Of a stretch of 64,000 bases of DNA, positions 1,431 through 34,316 are shown piece by piece (positions within the stretch are counted from its first letter, which is position 1; each line of letters starts with the position of its first letter). Below the pieces are notes generated by a model, which was not told the origin of the DNA, ran no database searches, and saw only the letters and a list, made by a program, of their open reading frames with translations. Made by a program: the position numbers and the translations under genes. Origin of the DNA: an uncultured Gammaproteobacteria bacterium (GTDB lineage Bacteria > Pseudomonadota > Gammaproteobacteria > Steroidobacterales > Woeseiaceae). The stretch is from positions 62,001 through 126,000 of the forward strand of contig CALBPI010000061.1 in the NCBI GenBank assembly GCA_937899415.1, read 5' to 3'.

Positions 1431-2666
1431 GTGACTGATACCAACCGGCTGTTCGAGCTGCTGCCATTTCTCGAGCCGCTCGCCAAGTGGCACCCGACGC
1501 TGCCGTCATTCGTCGTGCTGGCAGCGTTACTTCTCATTGCGGTCGCGGCGCACTTCATCGCGAGAACCATCTTCGTGCGCATCGCTCGCGCCCTGTCACG
1601 CCGGACCCAAACGGTCTGGGATAACGCCCTTATCGATCGCGGTGTCATCGGTCGTGTGGTTCAGCTGCTGCCCGCGATGATCGTCTATATCGGGCTCGAT
1701 TTCGTACCAGGCCTGGGCGATGACATCGCGACGTTGCTGCGCAACCTGACCCAGGGCTACATGATCCTCGTGCTGACGAGTGCGATTACGCGCGCGCTCA
1801 GCGTCGGCAATGCCATGTATGCGCGACACGCCGCGGCCGAACACCGTTCCATCAAAGGCTTCGTGCAGCTCATCCAGCTGGGTCTCTGGCTGCTCGCGAC
1901 CATTCTTGTCGTGTCCGTGCTCATCAACCGCTCGCCGCTGCTGCTGCTGTCGGGCTTTGGTGCGATGACGGCGATCATCCTGCTCGTGTTCCGCGACACT
2001 TTGCTATCGCTGGTGGCGAGCATCCAGCTGACGGCGCAGGACATGGTGCGCATCGGTGACTGGATTGAAATGCCCCAGTTCGGTGCCGACGGTGACGTTA
2101 TCGATATCCAGTTGCACACCGTGCAGGTGCAAAACTGGGACAAGACCATCACCACCATTCCGACCTATGCGCTCATTGGGAATAGCTTCAAGAACTGGCG
2201 GGGCATGACGCGGGCCGGGGCGCGTCGCATCAAGCGGGCGATCTATCTGGATGTGTCTTCGATCGGCTTCCTGGCCCCGGACGACGTTGATCGACTGCAT
2301 CGCTTCAAGCTGTTAGGCGAGTACCTCGACGACAAACTTATGGAGATCGGCGAGGCGGGCGAGGATGCGCTCGTGAACCGTCGGCGACTCACGAACCTCG
2401 GCACGTTTCGCGCCTATGTGGTTCGCTACCTGCAGCAGCACCCGGGCATTGCCCAGCACCTGACGCTCATGGCGCGCCAATTGCAGCCAGGTCCCGAAGG
2501 TCTGCCGCTGGAAATCTACTGCTTCACGAACACGACGGCGTGGACGGATTACGAGGGCATCCAGTCAGACGTGTTCGACCACCTGCTCGCGATCGTTCCG
2601 GAGTTTGGGCTGAAGCTCTACCAGAAGCCGGCGGGAACAGATCTTACGCGTGCGCTGATGCCTTAA
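1431..2666 (+). CDS. MscS-type mechanosensitive channel
   Basis: The 411-residue protein has hydrophobic spans near residues 25-47, 78-95, 108-125, 150-168 and 172-190. The conserved MscS core follows: a pore-helix region running into SLVASIQLTAQDMVRIGDWIE (about 191-213), then the beta domain with a TTIPTYALI motif near 241-249. The layout of five spans plus an extended C-terminal cytosolic domain resembles E. coli YbdG more than small MscS, which is an inference from length and topology. The start is GTG. The last four bases overlap the convergent oxidase gene, so no terminator separates them. Confidence 0.8.
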   Translation: MTDTNRLFELLPFLEPLAKWHPTLPSFVVLAALLLIAVAAHFIARTIFVRIARALSRRTQTVWDNALIDRGVIGRVVQLLPAMIVYIGLDFVPGLGDDIATLLRNLTQGYMILVLTSAITRALSVGNAMYARHAAAEHRSIKGFVQLIQLGLWLLATILVVSVLINRSPLLLLSGFGAMTAIILLVFRDTLLSLVASIQLTAQDMVRIGDWIEMPQFGADGDVIDIQLHTVQVQNWDKTITTIPTYALIGNSFKNWRGMTRAGARRIKRAIYLDVSSIGFLAPDDVDRLHRFKLLGEYLDDKLMEIGEAGEDALVNRRRLTNLGTFRAYVVRYLQQHPGIAQHLTLMARQLQPGPEGLPLEIYCFTNTTAWTDYEGIQSDVFDHLLAIVPEFGLKLYQKPAGTDLTRALMP

Positions 2667-4258
2667 CGGCGACGCGATGCGAGGCCGAGCGCGCCCGGAT
2701 TCATTCGGCCATCGGGATCGACAGCGGCCTTGATGCCTTCGACAGCGGCGCGCGTCGGTGCGTTCATGCCGTCGAGGTAGGGGTAGTATTTGCCAAGCTG
2801 GAAGTGTGTCGCGCCACACTCGTGCAGCGCTGTCGTGAGGTCGTCACGAATCTGCGCCACGCGGGCGCGCGCGGTTTCGTTGGCCGGAAAGTCTGTGAGC
2901 TTGGCGCGGTACTGCGGGTCGAGAAACCGCTTGTGAATCGTCATCTGCTCGTCGGGCCAGTACAGGCAGGGCTCGACGAGAATGGCCGAGGTCGCGATCG
3001 CGCACATGAGCACACCCGTGTCGATGTCCAGGCTGTTGAGTGCGTCGCGGTGTCGGTCAAAAACGGCCTCCGCCGCCCCGAACGCATCTGCCGCGCGACT
3101 CATGGCAAAGATGCCGTGCACAGGCGCCCAGCGTTCGCCGCCCGGACCCAGCAATGAGTTCACGTTTGCGAACGGGTCGGCGCGCATGACGCGGGGCATC
3201 GTCGCTTCAACTTCGCTGCCACCGTCCTCGCAGATTCCCCGAACGGCCGCGAGCTTCTCTTCGGCGGCTTCGGCCGTGCGCGCATCGAGCGTCACGTGCA
3301 TCGAGAAGTCGAGGTCCTTCAGGAACGAGCGCCCTGCGGCCACGATCTTCGCGCCGGCCTTGAGACCTTTGGCCAGCGAGCCTGCGCCCTTGATCACGCG
3401 CCCCAGTGACTTCACGTCTTCGGTCATGCTCGAGCGCTTGAGCCGGATGCCCTGCAGGCCCGGGTCGAAGCCGAAGCACTCGCTCACGAGGTCTTCGCGT
3501 GCGATCTCGCACATGGCGCGCATCATGGCGTCGAAGGTCTTGAAGCCAAACGATGCGTGGCGCGTTTCAGGCAGCAGGCGCTTGATGGGCAATGTGGCGC
3601 GCACCTTGATGCCCAGTGCTCCGCAGTCGCCTGTAAACAAGCCGGTCAGGTCCGGTCCGAGGTGTCGGTAGAACGGGCTTGCGTGCTGGTTGGCGGCCGA
3701 GCCGGTGGTCACGAGGCTGCCGTCGGCGAGCAGCACGTCGAGTGACTGCACGTTGTCGGCCGCCGAGCCGTGCTGCCCCGAACCCAGGAACACGCTGCCC
3801 TGAGACAGGGCGCCGCCAACGGTAGCGCGCAAACCCGAGAGCGGACCCCAGTAAGGCGTGCGCACGCCGTGAGGCTCGAGTGCAGCCGCGAGCGCGCGCC
3901 AGGTGCAGCCGGCCTCGACCGTGACGTACATGTCTTGGGTGTTGATCTCGACGATTCGGTCGAGTGCGCCGGTATCGACGAGCAGCGCCGAATCGTCCTG
4001 GGCCAGGAAGCCGTCGGTGTAGCTCATGCCCCCGCCACGGGGAATCACGGGCACCGCAAACTGTGCGGCGACACGGAGCGCCGCCTGCAGCGTGTCGACG
4101 TTCGCAGGTCGGATAATGGCCGCGACGGTCGCGCCCTTGCGGAACACGTCCTGCGAGAAAAACTCACGTTCGGCGTCATCGGTGATGACGCTGTCTGCGC
4201 CGACCGCGTCCGACAACGCATCGACGAAGGCCTGGGGTGTTGCGGGTTCCGCCTGCAT
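2663..4258 (-). CDS. FAD-linked oxidase (VAO/4-cresol dehydrogenase-like, GlcD family)
   Basis: A 531-residue flavoprotein. The N-terminal PCMH-type FAD-binding half carries PRGGGMSYTDG at residues 73-83. The C-terminal FAD-oxidase domain ends in the family's DPxGxMNPGALG signature near residues 515-528. Enzymes of this type oxidise alcohols, phenols or 2-hydroxyacids; the substrate cannot be read here. I start it at ATG 4258 rather than further upstream because the upstream frame is low-complexity arginine-rich sequence overlapping the preceding membrane-protein gene. It is the last gene of a three-gene minus operon with a membrane protein and a quinone-oxidoreductase-like enzyme. No signal peptide is seen, so it is probably cytosolic or peripherally membrane-bound. 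Confidence 0.75.
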   Translation of the reverse strand: MQAEPATPQAFVDALSDAVGADSVITDDAEREFFSQDVFRKGATVAAIIRPANVDTLQAALRVAAQFAVPVIPRGGGMSYTDGFLAQDDSALLVDTGALDRIVEINTQDMYVTVEAGCTWRALAAALEPHGVRTPYWGPLSGLRATVGGALSQGSVFLGSGQHGSAADNVQSLDVLLADGSLVTTGSAANQHASPFYRHLGPDLTGLFTGDCGALGIKVRATLPIKRLLPETRHASFGFKTFDAMMRAMCEIAREDLVSECFGFDPGLQGIRLKRSSMTEDVKSLGRVIKGAGSLAKGLKAGAKIVAAGRSFLKDLDFSMHVTLDARTAEAAEEKLAAVRGICEDGGSEVEATMPRVMRADPFANVNSLLGPGGERWAPVHGIFAMSRAADAFGAAEAVFDRHRDALNSLDIDTGVLMCAIATSAILVEPCLYWPDEQMTIHKRFLDPQYRAKLTDFPANETARARVAQIRDDLTTALHECGATHFQLGKYYPYLDGMNAPTRAAVEGIKAAVDPDGRMNPGALGLASRRR

Positions 4259-28970: not shown

Positions 28971-29582
28971 ATGTCTAACTACCCTGACGCTGCATTTCTG
29001 ACAAGTGCGGATTCGCTCACACAGTTCGTGGCGGATGCAGGCACTGAGGTCGCATTTGCCGGCCGCTCTAACGCGGGCAAGTCCTCGGCGATCAATGTCA
29101 TCGTGAACCGCAAGCAGTTCGCGCGGGTTTCCAAGACCCCGGGGCGCACGCAGCTCGTCAATTTTTTCCGCCTGAGCGGCGACAAACGACTCGTCGATCT
29201 GCCTGGCTACGGCTACGCCAGGGTGTCGGAGTCCATGCGCAGGCACTGGAAGTCGTTGATGGAAGACTATTTTTCTCAGCGACGCTCGCTTGCAGGCCTG
29301 TTTCTCATCGTCGACGTGCGACGCGGTCTCGTGGACTTCGACCTCGTCATGCTCGAATACGCCGAGCAGCTCGGCATTCCCGTGCACCTGTTGCTGACCA
29401 AGGCTGACAAGCTCAAACGCGGACAGGCTGCCCGCCAGTTCGAGGAGACCCGGCGTGCGCTCGAGGGCCGCGCCGGGGTACAGCTGTTCTCGTCGCTCAA
29501 CCGTCAGGGTGTCGACCAGGCCCGGGGCCGGCTCAACGAGATGCTGGGCGGCCACGTCAACACAGGCGATACGCTGGCGTGA
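28971..29582 (+). CDS. engB: Ribosome-biogenesis GTPase EngB (YihA/YsxC)
   Basis: The 203-residue GTPase shows all G motifs: GRSNAGKSS (G1, about 31-39), the switch threonine in KTPGRTQ (G2), DLPGYG (G3), TKAD (G4) and the SSL region (G5). It assists late assembly of the large ribosomal subunit. The length fits the family. It lies beside cytochrome c4 and near polA, which is the conserved gammaproteobacterial arrangement. The stop is followed at once by the small-RNA terminator on the opposite strand. Confidence 0.93.
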   Translation: MSNYPDAAFLTSADSLTQFVADAGTEVAFAGRSNAGKSSAINVIVNRKQFARVSKTPGRTQLVNFFRLSGDKRLVDLPGYGYARVSESMRRHWKSLMEDYFSQRRSLAGLFLIVDVRRGLVDFDLVMLEYAEQLGIPVHLLLTKADKLKRGQAARQFEETRRALEGRAGVQLFSSLNRQGVDQARGRLNEMLGGHVNTGDTLA

Positions 29583-29584
29583 AT

Positions 29585-29617
29585 AAAAAAAGGCCCGGTG
29601 CGTGGGCGCACCGGGCC
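29585..29617 (-). terminator. Intrinsic terminator of the minus-strand small RNA
   Basis: GGCCCGGTGCG (29592-29602) and CGCACCGGGCC (29607-29617) form a perfect 11-bp stem with a four-base loop. The seven-A run at 29585-29591 reads as seven T on the minus strand, so the terminator points leftward, although it could also stop engB transcripts. Confidence 0.8.
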
Positions 29618-29695
29618 AATGTCGCAACCGGTCTTGGGGTAACCGTGTTGCCTGCCCGTTCAGGGAGGGGAAACGGGCGAGCACTGTGGGTACTC
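29585..29695 (-). ncRNA. Candidate ErsA/Spot 42-position small RNA
   Basis: On the minus strand this roughly 110-base segment has a sigma-E-like promoter just upstream (29702-29729). Near its 5' end a hairpin (stem GCCCGTT/AACGGGC, 29654-29678) exposes TCCCCTCCCTG in its loop. A single-stranded spacer follows, then a strong intrinsic terminator. The C-rich loop is complementary to Shine-Dalgarno sequences. Spot 42 in E. coli and ErsA in Pseudomonas are both encoded between polA and engB, transcribed like polA, and ErsA depends on the envelope-stress sigma factor; strand and position agree here. The exact 5' end (about 29695) is estimated from the promoter. Confidence 0.6.
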
Positions 29696-29701
29696 AGAGA
29701 G

Positions 29702-29729
29702 TTAGAGTTCGATCCCGCGGCTGAGTTCC
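29702..29729 (-). promoter_or_regulatory. Sigma-E/AlgU-like promoter of the small RNA
   Basis: On the minus strand GGAACTC (29729-29723), 16 bases, then TCTAA (29706-29702) matches the extracytoplasmic stress sigma-factor pattern (GAACTT, about 16 bases, TCTAA/TCTGA). Confidence 0.55.
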
Positions 29730-29766
29730 CGGTAAGGTGTCGGCAGGCACAGTTGGGGGACGGTGC

Positions 29767-31608
29767 ATGGCCGGGCGAATCACACGCCGAGACTTCTTGA
29801 ACGGCACGCGCGTGGCCATCGGGGCGTCACTGCTGACGCCCTGGATAGAGGCCTTTGGCCGCGATGCGCCTGATTTCCGCTTGCCTGAAGGCTACTACCC
29901 GCCTGCCACGACAGGTCTACAGGGCAGCCACGACGAGGCCTGGCAGGCCATGCATGCGCGCGTGGCCGGCGCAAAAGTTCCCGAGGCAACTATCGAAGCC
30001 GACTACGACCTTGTGGTGGTTGGCGGCGGCATCAGTGGTCTTGCCGCGGCCTGGTTCTATCGCCGCGAACACCCTGACGCCCGCGTGCTGGTGCTCGATA
30101 ATCACGACGACTTCGGCGGCCACGCGAAGCGCAACGAATTTACGGTCGACGGGCAGCGACAGATCGCCTACGGCGGCACCGAGTCCATCGACACGCCGTC
30201 GGGTTACAGCCAGGTCTCGAGCGCACTGCTCGAGGACATCGGCGTCGATGTCTCGCGTTTCTACGATTACTTTGACCAGAACCTCTACGACGATCTGGGC
30301 CTGAGCTACGGCATCGCGTTCGATGCAGAGACCTACGGCGAACGCCGGCTGGTCACGGGCTACGGCAGTCGGCCCTGGCAGGACTTCGCCGACGAGGCGC
30401 CGCTCCACGATGCGGCCAAGGCGGACCTGGTCCGCGCCTTTACCGACGAACGCGATTACCTGCCGGACCTCTCGCGCGAGGAGAAAGTCGCGCTGCTCAG
30501 CCGGATCAGTTACCGCGAGTACCTGGCCGACTACGTCGGCGTCGACGAACAGGTGCTGGCGCTCTACCAGCGCTGGGGCATGAGCTTCTGGTGCGTCGGC
30601 ATGGATGAAATCCCGGCCATCGATATTTTCGACTACGGCGACGGCGGCAGCCTGCCCGGACTCACGTACACCTTGAAGCCCGAAGGCAATCGCGGTGCAG
30701 AGCCCTACATCTTTCACTTCCCCGACGGCAACGCGACGATTGCGCGCTTGCTCGTCCGACAGTTGATTCCCGCCGCGCTGCCCGGGTCGACGATGGAAGA
30801 CAGCGTCCTCGCACAGCTCGACTACACGCAGCTCGACCGGCGCGATGCCGACGTTCAGATTCGTCTCAACAGTACGGTCGTGAATGCTGTGCACGCTGCC
30901 GATGAGCGGTCGGTCAAGGTTACCTACGTTCGTCAAGGCGCGAGTCACGCGGTACGCGCCAGACACTGCGTCATGGCCTGCTACAACCGCGCGATTCCCT
31001 ACCTCTGCCCAGAGCTCCCCGACACGCAAAAGGTTGGTCTGGCCTATAACGTCAAGGTGCCGTTGACCTACACGAAGGTGGCCCTGTTCAACTGGCGCGC
31101 CTTTGCCGAGCAGAGCCTCCGCTATGTGTATTTCACGAATGACTTCTACAAGCAGGTCGAGCTCGACTACCCCGTGAGCCTGGGCGGCTACAACTTCGGC
31201 TCCGACCCGGACGCGCCCATGACGCTGCACCTCTGTCACGTGCCGTACTTCGCGGATATACAGGGGCCCGAGCAGTGGCGTGCCGGCCGGCGCCAGATGC
31301 TGGCGACGCCGTTTGAGACCTACGAGCACCACGTGAGAGATCAGTTGGCGCAGGCGTTGTCGGGCGCGGATTTTGACGCCGATCGCGATATCGAGGCCAT
31401 CACCGTCAACCGGTGGGCGCATGGCTACGCCTACAGCCCCGATCTGCTTTGGGAACCCGACTACGCCTCAGACGCCGAGAAGCCCTGGGTGATTGGGCGA
31501 CAGCCTTTTGGACGCATTGCTATCGCTAATTCCGATGCGGGCGCGTCAGCCGACACCAACACGGCGATCGCCGAGGCGCACCGTGCGGTTCAGGAGCTCA
31601 CGGGCTGA
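29767..31608 (+). CDS. Tat-exported FAD oxidoreductase, spermidine-dehydrogenase-like
   Basis: This 613-residue protein begins with a twin-arginine signal (TRRDFLNG, residues 6-13). Its FAD motif VVVGGGISGLAAAWFYRREHP lies near residues 83-103 and is followed by VLDNHDDFGGHAKRNEF. The pattern recalls spermidine dehydrogenase (SpdH), which shares the RRDFLNG signal and the overall length, but polyamine specificity is not proven by sequence alone. ATG 29767 follows GGGGGA and starts right before the Tat motif. It sits between the small-RNA promoter and polA, a place normally occupied by no gene in E. coli, and ends eight bases from polA's stop. Confidence 0.72.
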   Translation: MAGRITRRDFLNGTRVAIGASLLTPWIEAFGRDAPDFRLPEGYYPPATTGLQGSHDEAWQAMHARVAGAKVPEATIEADYDLVVVGGGISGLAAAWFYRREHPDARVLVLDNHDDFGGHAKRNEFTVDGQRQIAYGGTESIDTPSGYSQVSSALLEDIGVDVSRFYDYFDQNLYDDLGLSYGIAFDAETYGERRLVTGYGSRPWQDFADEAPLHDAAKADLVRAFTDERDYLPDLSREEKVALLSRISYREYLADYVGVDEQVLALYQRWGMSFWCVGMDEIPAIDIFDYGDGGSLPGLTYTLKPEGNRGAEPYIFHFPDGNATIARLLVRQLIPAALPGSTMEDSVLAQLDYTQLDRRDADVQIRLNSTVVNAVHAADERSVKVTYVRQGASHAVRARHCVMACYNRAIPYLCPELPDTQKVGLAYNVKVPLTYTKVALFNWRAFAEQSLRYVYFTNDFYKQVELDYPVSLGGYNFGSDPDAPMTLHLCHVPYFADIQGPEQWRAGRRQMLATPFETYEHHVRDQLAQALSGADFDADRDIEAITVNRWAHGYAYSPDLLWEPDYASDAEKPWVIGRQPFGRIAIANSDAGASADTNTAIAEAHRAVQELTG

Positions 31609-31616
31609 ACGACGCG

Positions 31617-34316
31617 CTAGTGCGCTTCGTCCCAATTCGCGCCCGCAGCCGCGTCGACCTTAAGCGGCACGTCGAGCATTGCCGCACGTGCCATGCGCTC
31701 GATGACCTCGGCCATGACAGCGTCCGCCGCTGACTCGGCCACTTCGAGCACGAGCTCATCGTGCACCTGCATGATCAGGCGCGCATCGGTCTTGCCACTC
31801 TTGAGCCAGCCGTGCACGTCGATCATGGCGCGCTTAATGATGTCGGCCGCTGAACCCTGCATGGGCGCGTTGATAGCACTGCGTTCCGCGTACTGGCGGC
31901 GCTGCGGATTGCGCGCATTGATCTCTGGCAGGTAGAGCCGGCGGCCTTCGATCGTCTCGACGTAACCGTTATCGCGCGCCTGCGTGCGTGTGCGTTCCAT
32001 GTAGTCGTGCACGCCCGGGTAGCGCTCGAAGTAGCGGTCGACGTAGGCCTGTGCCTCGCCGCGCCCGATCGAAAGCTGCTTGGCGAGCCCAAAAGCAGAC
32101 ATGCCGTAGATGAGTCCGAAGTTGATGGCCTTCGCCGAACGCCGCTGATCCGAGGTGACGTCATCCAGTGCAACCTCAAAGACCTCGGCGGCCGTCGCGC
32201 GGTGCACGTCTTCGTCATTGGCGAACGCGCTCAGCAAACCTTCGTCCTGCGACAGGTGCGCCATGATGCGCAGCTCAATCTGCGAGTAGTCGGCGGCGAT
32301 GAGCCGGTAACCCGCCTCGGGCACAAACGCCTGGCGAATGCGTCGACCTTCAGGCCTGCGGATCGGAATGTTCTGCAGGTTCGGGTCCGACGAAGACAGG
32401 CGACCCGTTGCGGCCACGGCCTGGTGGTAGGACGTGTGAATGCGACCGTCCGCTGCGATCAGCGTGGGCAGCTTCTCCGTGTAGGTGCTGCGCAACTTCG
32501 ACACGCTGCGGAAGTCGAGGATGACCTGTGGCAAGTCGTAGTCGGCGGCCAATTCGACGAGCACGTCTTCCGCCGTTGAGGGCGCACCCTTGGCCGTCTT
32601 GCGCAGTACGGGCAGTTCGAGTTCCTCAAACAGAATCTCGCCAAGCTGCTTGGGCGAACCCAGATTGAAGGGGCGACCCGCAAGCTCATGTGCGGCGTCC
32701 TGCAGCTCGGCCATCTTTTCACCAAGCTCGTGGCTTTGCATCACGAGCAGGTCGGCGTCAACACGCACCCCGGCTTCCTCCATCTCGAACAACACGGGAA
32801 CCAGCGGTTGTTCGATGTCGGCGTAGACGGCTTTGAGCGTGGGTTCCTTGTCGAGCGCCTCGATCAGGTGCTCGTGCAGGCGCAACGTGATGTCGGCATC
32901 TTCAGCGGCGTAAGGGCCTGCGATCTCGAGGTCGATCTCGTCAAAAGTCTTTTGCTTGGCACCTTTGCCTGCGACGTCTTCGTATTTGATCGTCGATCGG
33001 CCCAGATAGAACTGCGCCAGCGAGTCCATATCGTGTCGTGACGCCGTCGAGTTGAGCACGTAGGACGCCAGCATGGAGTCGTGCTGCATGCCCGCAAGCG
33101 CGATGTCGTAGCGCGCGAAAATATGCGCGTCGTACTTGAGGTGATGGCCGACCTTGGCCTGCTTCGGGTCCTCGAGAAACGGCTTGAGCCTCGCGAGTAC
33201 GTGTTCGCGCGTGAGCTGCTCCGGGGCGCCCGAGTAGGCGTGCGCCACCGGGATGTAGCAGGCACTGCCCGTTTCAACGCAAAGGCTGATGCCGACGAGC
33301 TCGGCGCTCATGTAGTCGAGGCTGTTGGTCTCCGTGTCGACGGCCACGAGGTCAGCCGTGTCGATGCGCTTGAGCCAAGCGTCGAGTGCCTTGTCGTCGA
33401 GCACGATCTCGTAGTCGCCGGCCTCCTCGTCGGTCGCGGCTTCGGGTGCAGCGCCGCCGACGTCTTCGGCTTCCTCGAGCTGGCGGCGTAGCGTATTGAG
33501 CTCCCAGCGTGTGTACAGCGCGTGAAGGGCGTCGACGTCGCGCTCTGTCGGTGCGAGCCCGTCGGGCCCTGCGTCGAGCTCGACATCGAGCTTGATGGTG
33601 GCGAGTACACGCGACATCTCCAGCTGCTCGATGTGCTCGCGCAGGCTCTCGCCGACCTTGCCTGTGATCTCGTCGGCCTTCTCGATGATCGTGTCGCAGT
33701 CGCCATAGGCGTTGAGCCATTTGGCCGCGGTTTTCGCGCCCACCTTGGGTACACCCGGGATGTTGTCAGCCGTGTCGCCGACGAGCCCGAGGTAGTCGAT
33801 GATCTGTTCGGGCCAGACATCGAACTTGGTCTTCACACCGTCGCGGTCGAGCACTGTGTTGCTCATCGTATTCACGAGCGTGACGTGCTCGTTGACGAGT
33901 TGTGCCATGTCCTTGTCGCTCGTGGACACGAGTGTGGCTATGCCCGCCTCGCTTGCTTGCGTCGCGAGCGTGCCGATCACGTCATCGGCTTCAACACCCG
34001 GGATACGCAACAGCGGGACGCCCATGGCCTCGACGATGTCGATGATGGGCTGGATCTGGCTGCGCATGTCGTCGGGCATGGGCGGCCGGCTTGCCTTGTA
34101 ATCGTCGAACAGGTCGTCGCGGAAGGTCTTGCCAGGCGCGTCGAGCACCATGCCGATGTAGTCGGGCTGCTCTTCGCGGATCATCTTGTTGAGCATGTTC
34201 AACACGCCGTGCACGGCGCCCGTGGGCTCGCCTTTGGCGGTGGTCAGCGGGGGCAGGGCGTGGAAGGCGCGGAACAGGTAGGCCGAGCCGTCAACGAGCA
34301 GGAGTTTCTTCGTCAT
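31617..34316 (-). CDS. polA: DNA polymerase I
   Basis: The 899-residue enzyme has all three domains: the 5'-3' nuclease (about 1-290, with DxxGKTFRDDLF and SDKDMAQLV), the 3'-5' exonuclease with intact DxE in VAVDTETNSLD near residue 320, and the polymerase with motif A ADYSQIELR, motif B KAINFGLIYG and motif C MQVHDELV. It fills gaps and removes RNA primers. Its first 26 bases overlap the end of the small lipoprotein gene, so the two are cotranscribed with the upstream thioesterase gene. Confidence 0.96.
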   Translation of the reverse strand: MTKKLLLVDGSAYLFRAFHALPPLTTAKGEPTGAVHGVLNMLNKMIREEQPDYIGMVLDAPGKTFRDDLFDDYKASRPPMPDDMRSQIQPIIDIVEAMGVPLLRIPGVEADDVIGTLATQASEAGIATLVSTSDKDMAQLVNEHVTLVNTMSNTVLDRDGVKTKFDVWPEQIIDYLGLVGDTADNIPGVPKVGAKTAAKWLNAYGDCDTIIEKADEITGKVGESLREHIEQLEMSRVLATIKLDVELDAGPDGLAPTERDVDALHALYTRWELNTLRRQLEEAEDVGGAAPEAATDEEAGDYEIVLDDKALDAWLKRIDTADLVAVDTETNSLDYMSAELVGISLCVETGSACYIPVAHAYSGAPEQLTREHVLARLKPFLEDPKQAKVGHHLKYDAHIFARYDIALAGMQHDSMLASYVLNSTASRHDMDSLAQFYLGRSTIKYEDVAGKGAKQKTFDEIDLEIAGPYAAEDADITLRLHEHLIEALDKEPTLKAVYADIEQPLVPVLFEMEEAGVRVDADLLVMQSHELGEKMAELQDAAHELAGRPFNLGSPKQLGEILFEELELPVLRKTAKGAPSTAEDVLVELAADYDLPQVILDFRSVSKLRSTYTEKLPTLIAADGRIHTSYHQAVAATGRLSSSDPNLQNIPIRRPEGRRIRQAFVPEAGYRLIAADYSQIELRIMAHLSQDEGLLSAFANDEDVHRATAAEVFEVALDDVTSDQRRSAKAINFGLIYGMSAFGLAKQLSIGRGEAQAYVDRYFERYPGVHDYMERTRTQARDNGYVETIEGRRLYLPEINARNPQRRQYAERSAINAPMQGSAADIIKRAMIDVHGWLKSGKTDARLIMQVHDELVLEVAESAADAVMAEVIERMARAAMLDVPLKVDAAAGANWDEAH

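Follow-up and report, generated by a model that had tools for sequence, protein, structure and literature searches.

The window, by which we mean the whole 64,000-nucleotide stretch of DNA from an uncultured gammaproteobacterium that was analysed, carries at the polA-engB locus a small RNA gene which, on comparative sequence evidence, is real. Its structure, the paired changes that conserve it, its promoter, its place at the polA-engB locus and the presence of rpoE, an rseA-like gene and hfq in the genome are computed results. We regard it as very probable that the gene encodes a trans-acting small RNA which is controlled by RpoE and pairs through C-rich loops at G-rich ribosome-binding sites. 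The first-pass annotation of this DNA had proposed a stress-controlled small RNA at the ErsA/Spot 42 locus, and at the level of sequence this reading is supported. The kind of gene is already known, its relatives having been described separately as ErsA, sX13 and anti-hemB. The reading offers a function that can be put to the test for a gene which lacks annotation and occurs in about half of the class as sampled, and it links three separately named small RNAs of Pseudomonas, Xanthomonas and Burkholderia. The features of the locus are listed in Table 1.

Table 1 Features at the small RNA locus of the window, with the basis of each assignment.
Feature	Position	Strand	Basis or remark
engB/ysxC (YihA/YsxC GTPase)	28971..29582	+	TIGR03598, 225 bits
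Small RNA (predicted)	29585..29695	-	about 111 nt; start placed 6-7 nt past the -10 element
Intrinsic terminator, 11-bp stem, loop CCCA, seven T	29585..29617	-	sequence and MFE
Stem-loop 2, loop ACCCCAA (29640-29634)	29624..29651	-	MFE and alignment
Stem-loop 1, C-rich 9-nt loop CCCCUCCCU	29654..29678	-	MFE and alignment
5' hairpin GAGUAC-CCACA-GUGCUC	29679..29695	-	MFE; begins at predicted first base
-10 element TCTAA, exactly 16 nt past the -35 element	29702..29706	-	sequence and conservation
-35 element GGAACTC, sigma-E/AlgU type	29723..29729	-	sequence and conservation
Oxidoreductase-like gene, 623 codons	29737..31608	+	ORF; family match weak
polA, DNA polymerase I	31617..34316	- (same strand as small RNA)	NF004397, 1210 bits

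The small RNA gene and engB are convergent, and the engB stop codon (29580-29582) lies 2 bases off the terminator. Placement between polA and engB on the polA strand, as annotated at first, held for the strand, but a plus-strand gene of 1.9 kb (29737-31608), divergent from the small RNA, is inserted on the polA side and separates polA from the RNA. Most relatives have polA immediately next to the small RNA, which this genome does not. ErsA occupies this same polA-engB locus, its model (RF01719) having matched beside polA in a Pseudomonas-like family, and so does Spot 42 in E. coli. The neighbours read at the window locus were engB, a cytochrome c-like gene and a DsbA-like gene. The 623-codon gene is missing at this place in most relatives, and its start lies near the small RNA promoter.

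The promoter had been given as GGAACTC-N16-TCTAA on the minus strand and is present exactly so (29729-29702). For the relatives, GAACT was sought in the upstream stretch where it was expected, with windows from the same loci as controls; it occurred in 80 of 84 loci of the order and in 24 of 27 of the wider class, compared to 4.5% of the control windows. At the fixed spacing of 16 nt, TC-N-A-A was found across 108 loci with frequencies of 72% (T), 81% (C), 57% (A) and 75% (A). Since the loci had been picked by models that do not contain the promoter, the upstream motif offers a test that is independent of them. This motif is the sigma-E/AlgU consensus known from E. coli and Pseudomonas, and the promoter type of the small RNA is conserved. 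The annotation had staked its reading on the loop and the promoter being conserved in relatives, and both proved strongly conserved. The genome encodes one RpoE above the NCBIfam cut-off (292 bits), followed by an RseA-like open reading frame (judged by eye from its N-terminus), and it contains hfq.

A small RNA of the same family could also be expressed by a housekeeping promoter or be controlled by some other regulator, with the GGAACTC-TCTAA match as a relic. This would fit the sX13 loci, which keep only GAACC, some Burkholderiales-like copies without GGAACTT, and the -35 element of the window itself, which reads GGAACTC and not GGAACTT. In the window, however, the -35 and -10 elements are intact and so is the 16-nt spacer, and the retention of GAACT at nearly all loci of the order likewise speaks against a relic, which we consider unlikely. 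Under the preferred reading of an RpoE-controlled RNA, sigma-E control may not be universal, since the sX13 loci show a degraded -35 element (GAACC) and the available part of the sX13 publication (PMC3771888) does not assign a sigma factor to this RNA.

The RNA predicted from 29695 to 29585 has a minimum free energy of -58.3 kcal/mol compared to -33.7 +/- 3.3 kcal/mol for dinucleotide shuffles (z -7.5), and none of 200 shuffles folded as well. Its 111 nt agree with the earlier estimate of about 110 bases, and it forms four stem-loops, terminator included. The hairpin that had been announced just after the promoter is found at 29678-29654 and does display a C-rich loop, CCCCUCCCU; the loop given at first, TCCCCTCCC, also counts the U of the closing U-G pair. 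The 11-bp terminator ending in seven T is also present in the sequence, with 29617-29607 pairing with 29602-29592 and the seven T at 29591-29585. The 5' hairpin (29695-29679) and the second C-rich loop, ACCCCAA, go beyond the annotation. The C-rich loops contain the anti-Shine-Dalgarno core CCUCC.

Within the order, the anti-hemB model RF02837 matched 94 of 147 genomes at E <= 0.001, only 6 of them above the curated cut-off. The match was adjoined by polA and/or engB in 85 of the 90 loci taken, the usual arrangement being polA on the RNA strand and engB convergent. The remaining five comprise four lower-scoring matches elsewhere (L055, L086, L092 and L093) and one locus that stops at a contig end (L027). 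L086 belongs to a single-contig genome of the same family (G006) and is the sole RF02837 match listed there, away from polA-engB; the small RNA may have been lost or have diverged in this genome. BLASTN in 60 relatives found only 5, as the sequence is too diverged for a plain search. A protein-based scan of genome contigs for EngB gave no match.

For the structure, 74 loci were aligned, and a four-helix structure was written by hand and then tested. Across the alignment, 87.6% of the cells were paired, a percentage that leans toward the structure because it was written from the same sequences; the stronger point is that two-sided changes occurred in 27 of 29 base pairs. The covariation score was reached by none of 500 shuffles, and pairing fell to 34-51% when the partners were slid by 1-3 columns. 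Two-sided changes were seen in 5 of the 6 pairs of helix 1, the 5' hairpin (75% of cells paired), and in 9 of the 10 pairs of helix 4, the terminator (93%), while CUCCC in the loop of stem-loop 1 was invariant across the 74 sequences. RNAalifold alone recovered only two helices, owing to alignment gaps.

A covariance model of our own, R1, was built from the 74 loci of the order. It scores the window, which is within the training set, at 78.8 bits and matches 189 of 369 genomes of the class; 27 of the best 30 class-level loci lie beside polA and/or engB. The window has the traits of this group, namely the four-helix fold, C-rich loops, a promoter of the GAACTT-N16-TCNAA type and a polA/engB neighbour. 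An independent DNA pattern consisting of GGAACTT plus the loop was also run over about 85,000 genomes and matched at least 120 stretches, largely in beta- and gammaproteobacteria beside engB. Most of the 80 matches examined came from Betaproteobacteria (Rhodocyclaceae, Nitrosospira, Thiobacillus, Chromobacteriaceae) and from Gammaproteobacteria (for instance Thioalkalivibrio and Steroidobacteraceae), mostly beside engB, and a few were chance matches (Mycobacterium, an archaeon, a Bacillota bin and an Ignavibacteriales bin). The phylum-wide sample contained no convincing alphaproteobacterial member.

Tandem arrays of 2-4 copies beside polA and/or engB were observed at L275 (genome G336, 1649-2404, minus strand) and L276 (G443, 2058-2994, minus strand), and likewise at L277, L278, L279 and L281. 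The copies at L275 and L276 have their own promoters of the GGAAC...TCTGACC type or similar, and those at L275 match the anti-hemB, sX13 and ErsA models. In a genome with four tandem copies, the copies match anti-hemB below the cut-off, and two of them also match sX13 (48 bits) or ErsA (37 bits), again just below or below the cut-off. Genome G777 (family f122) has five dispersed R1 matches on C10, C14 and C1 (L297); the L297 copy shows neither polA nor engB within the 3.1 kb examined and no visible GGAACTT promoter.

That the element merely is a bidirectional terminator or an array of 3' hairpins past engB, devoid of a separate RNA function, is suggested by its position directly after the engB stop codon and by its strong terminator. 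We hold this to be very improbable in view of its own conserved promoter, the three further conserved stem-loops with the invariant CUCCC loop and covarying stems, the tandem copies with promoters of their own in some families, the fact that polA is not even adjacent in this genome, and relatives that are characterised small RNAs.

Among these relatives, anti-hemB is the formal, though marginal, label of the window RNA, since RF02837 gave the single match above the curated cut-offs in the Rfam scan of the whole window and passed by only 0.8 bit (50.3 bits versus 49.5, on 29585-29680, model positions 1-81 of 81). The window RNA has in common with anti-hemB (Burkholderia RNA 7, ncS04) C-rich loop 1 and the terminator layout and is described here additionally with the 5' hairpin and the sigma-E-type promoter. 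Expression of anti-hemB/ncS04 in Burkholderia has been reported (PMC5688073), and no function of the family was found in the literature searched. A comparison with the covariance models of ErsA and Spot 42 had been proposed as a check and came out negative, as Rfam models up to E = 10 gave no ErsA, sX13 or Spot 42 match in 29400-29900 of the window. The scan with the sX13 model (RF02232) gave no match in genome G000.

Like the window RNA, sX13 of Xanthomonas lies downstream of polA on the polA strand, has about 115 nt and carries C-rich apical loops on its stem-loops. It differs in the loops (CCCC/CCCCC) and in having no clear sigma-E promoter, and it was published as limited to Xanthomonadaceae. 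R1 scored 34-36 bits at three loci where the sX13 model reached 103-125 bits. sX13 acts through its C-rich loops, independently of Hfq, to repress mRNAs that carry G-rich motifs close to the start codon (PMC3771888). Two sX13 carriers (L301 in G331 and L303 in G179) contain a second, unlinked candidate RNA with a C-rich hairpin and a strong terminator, which R1 scores at 35-37 bits away from polA.

ErsA (Pseudomon-1, RF01719) shares with the window RNA the polA-engB locus, a GAACTT-type promoter and a C-rich loop, UCCCUCCCC, but its C-rich loop lies in the terminator hairpin and its 5' half is different. At six polA loci of a family which we call Pseudomonas-like because of its ErsA and PrrF matches, R1 scored 27-32 bits; Rfam scans of two of them, L251 and L259, yielded ErsA at 81 and 130 bits. 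An R1 score of 27-35 bits does not decide the matter by itself, as such values are also reached elsewhere; in this family, 6 of 12 R1 matches lie at polA, a share not to be expected by chance. The window RNA is linked to ErsA by its locus, its promoter and weak scores of the model. ErsA is sigma22-dependent and sigma22-induced, and Hfq is involved for several of its targets (PMC5819304, PMC8575079). The following assignments were rejected: RF02231 as sX13 (it is sX12), family f41 as Xanthomonadaceae (it is a two-genome family) and Bordetella S17 as a relative (the S17 paper puts it in RF02278, a different family).

Spot 42 (E. coli spf, RF00021) is under CRP control and shares with the window locus the polA-spf-engB order, yet descent of a Spot 42-like function at this locus, i.e. 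an Hfq-dependent, CRP-controlled carbon regulator, is hardly credible, as R1 on spf matches the terminator only (11.3 bits), the Spot 42 model does not match the window up to E = 10, and promoter and loops differ. Spot 42 is therefore related by place only, and common descent beyond the locus is unsupported. In E. coli NZ_AP018784.2 (L261, 4019-4066), the annotation places within the Spot 42 RNA gene a protein-coding gene that bears the name 'spot 42 RNA'.

The scores of R1 and the Rfam models at the sX13, ErsA, tandem and spf loci lead to graded views on common descent, which is likely for the window RNA with sX13 and anti-hemB and probable with ErsA. As a general reading, it is probable that beta- and gammaproteobacteria share a single sigma-E-linked small RNA at the polA-engB locus. 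We put slightly more belief than doubt in the wider proposal that ErsA, sX13 and anti-hemB are one ancient polA-engB small RNA gene, ancestrally driven by sigma-E, spread through the beta- and gammaproteobacteria and amplified in tandem in places; outside the enterobacteria it would be the general counterpart to the sigma-E small RNAs that E. coli has. MicA and RybB are sigma-E-driven small RNAs, and the window RNA would share with them and with VrrA the type of circuit while lying at a different locus. VrrA is described as sigma-E-driven (PMC2628432). The open-access papers searched were not found to state that ErsA, sX13 and anti-hemB are one sigma-E-linked gene, and no open-access paper naming sX13 and ErsA together was found. 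The proposal suggests that envelope-stress control of ErsA is the old state and not a peculiarity of Pseudomonas, and what is known about the targets of sX13 and ErsA could in that case be transferred to many bacteria.

In the mechanism that we propose, the gene, about 111 nt long and with a terminator of its own, would be transcribed into a trans-acting RNA by RNA polymerase carrying RpoE, an envelope-stress sigma factor of the AlgU type. Rigid stem-loops would present the C-rich loops CCCCUCCCU and ACCCCAA for pairing with G-rich ribosome-binding sites of target mRNAs, which would mainly block translation, as shown for sX13. We infer transcription at this place, RpoE as its driver and mRNA repression at ribosome-binding sites from the sequence features. 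The target search, which covered 366 predicted genes on roughly 460 kb of the genome, showed no specificity. Loop 1 had perfect 6-mer matches in 26 start regions, the reversed loop in 21, and exported proteins were not enriched among the best predicted targets (Fisher p = 1). Start regions gave more strong pairings (-14 kcal/mol) than gene interiors did (23 versus 1), but shuffled and reversed loops did as well as the real loops on the measures tried. The two best single candidates, both weak and chosen post hoc, are a TonB-dependent receptor (Pfam), whose start region reads CAGGGGGGG and gives -20 kcal/mol, and an RseP-type protease (M50 family, PDZ domains) with GGAGGGG. If the latter holds true, the RNA would exert feedback on sigma-E.
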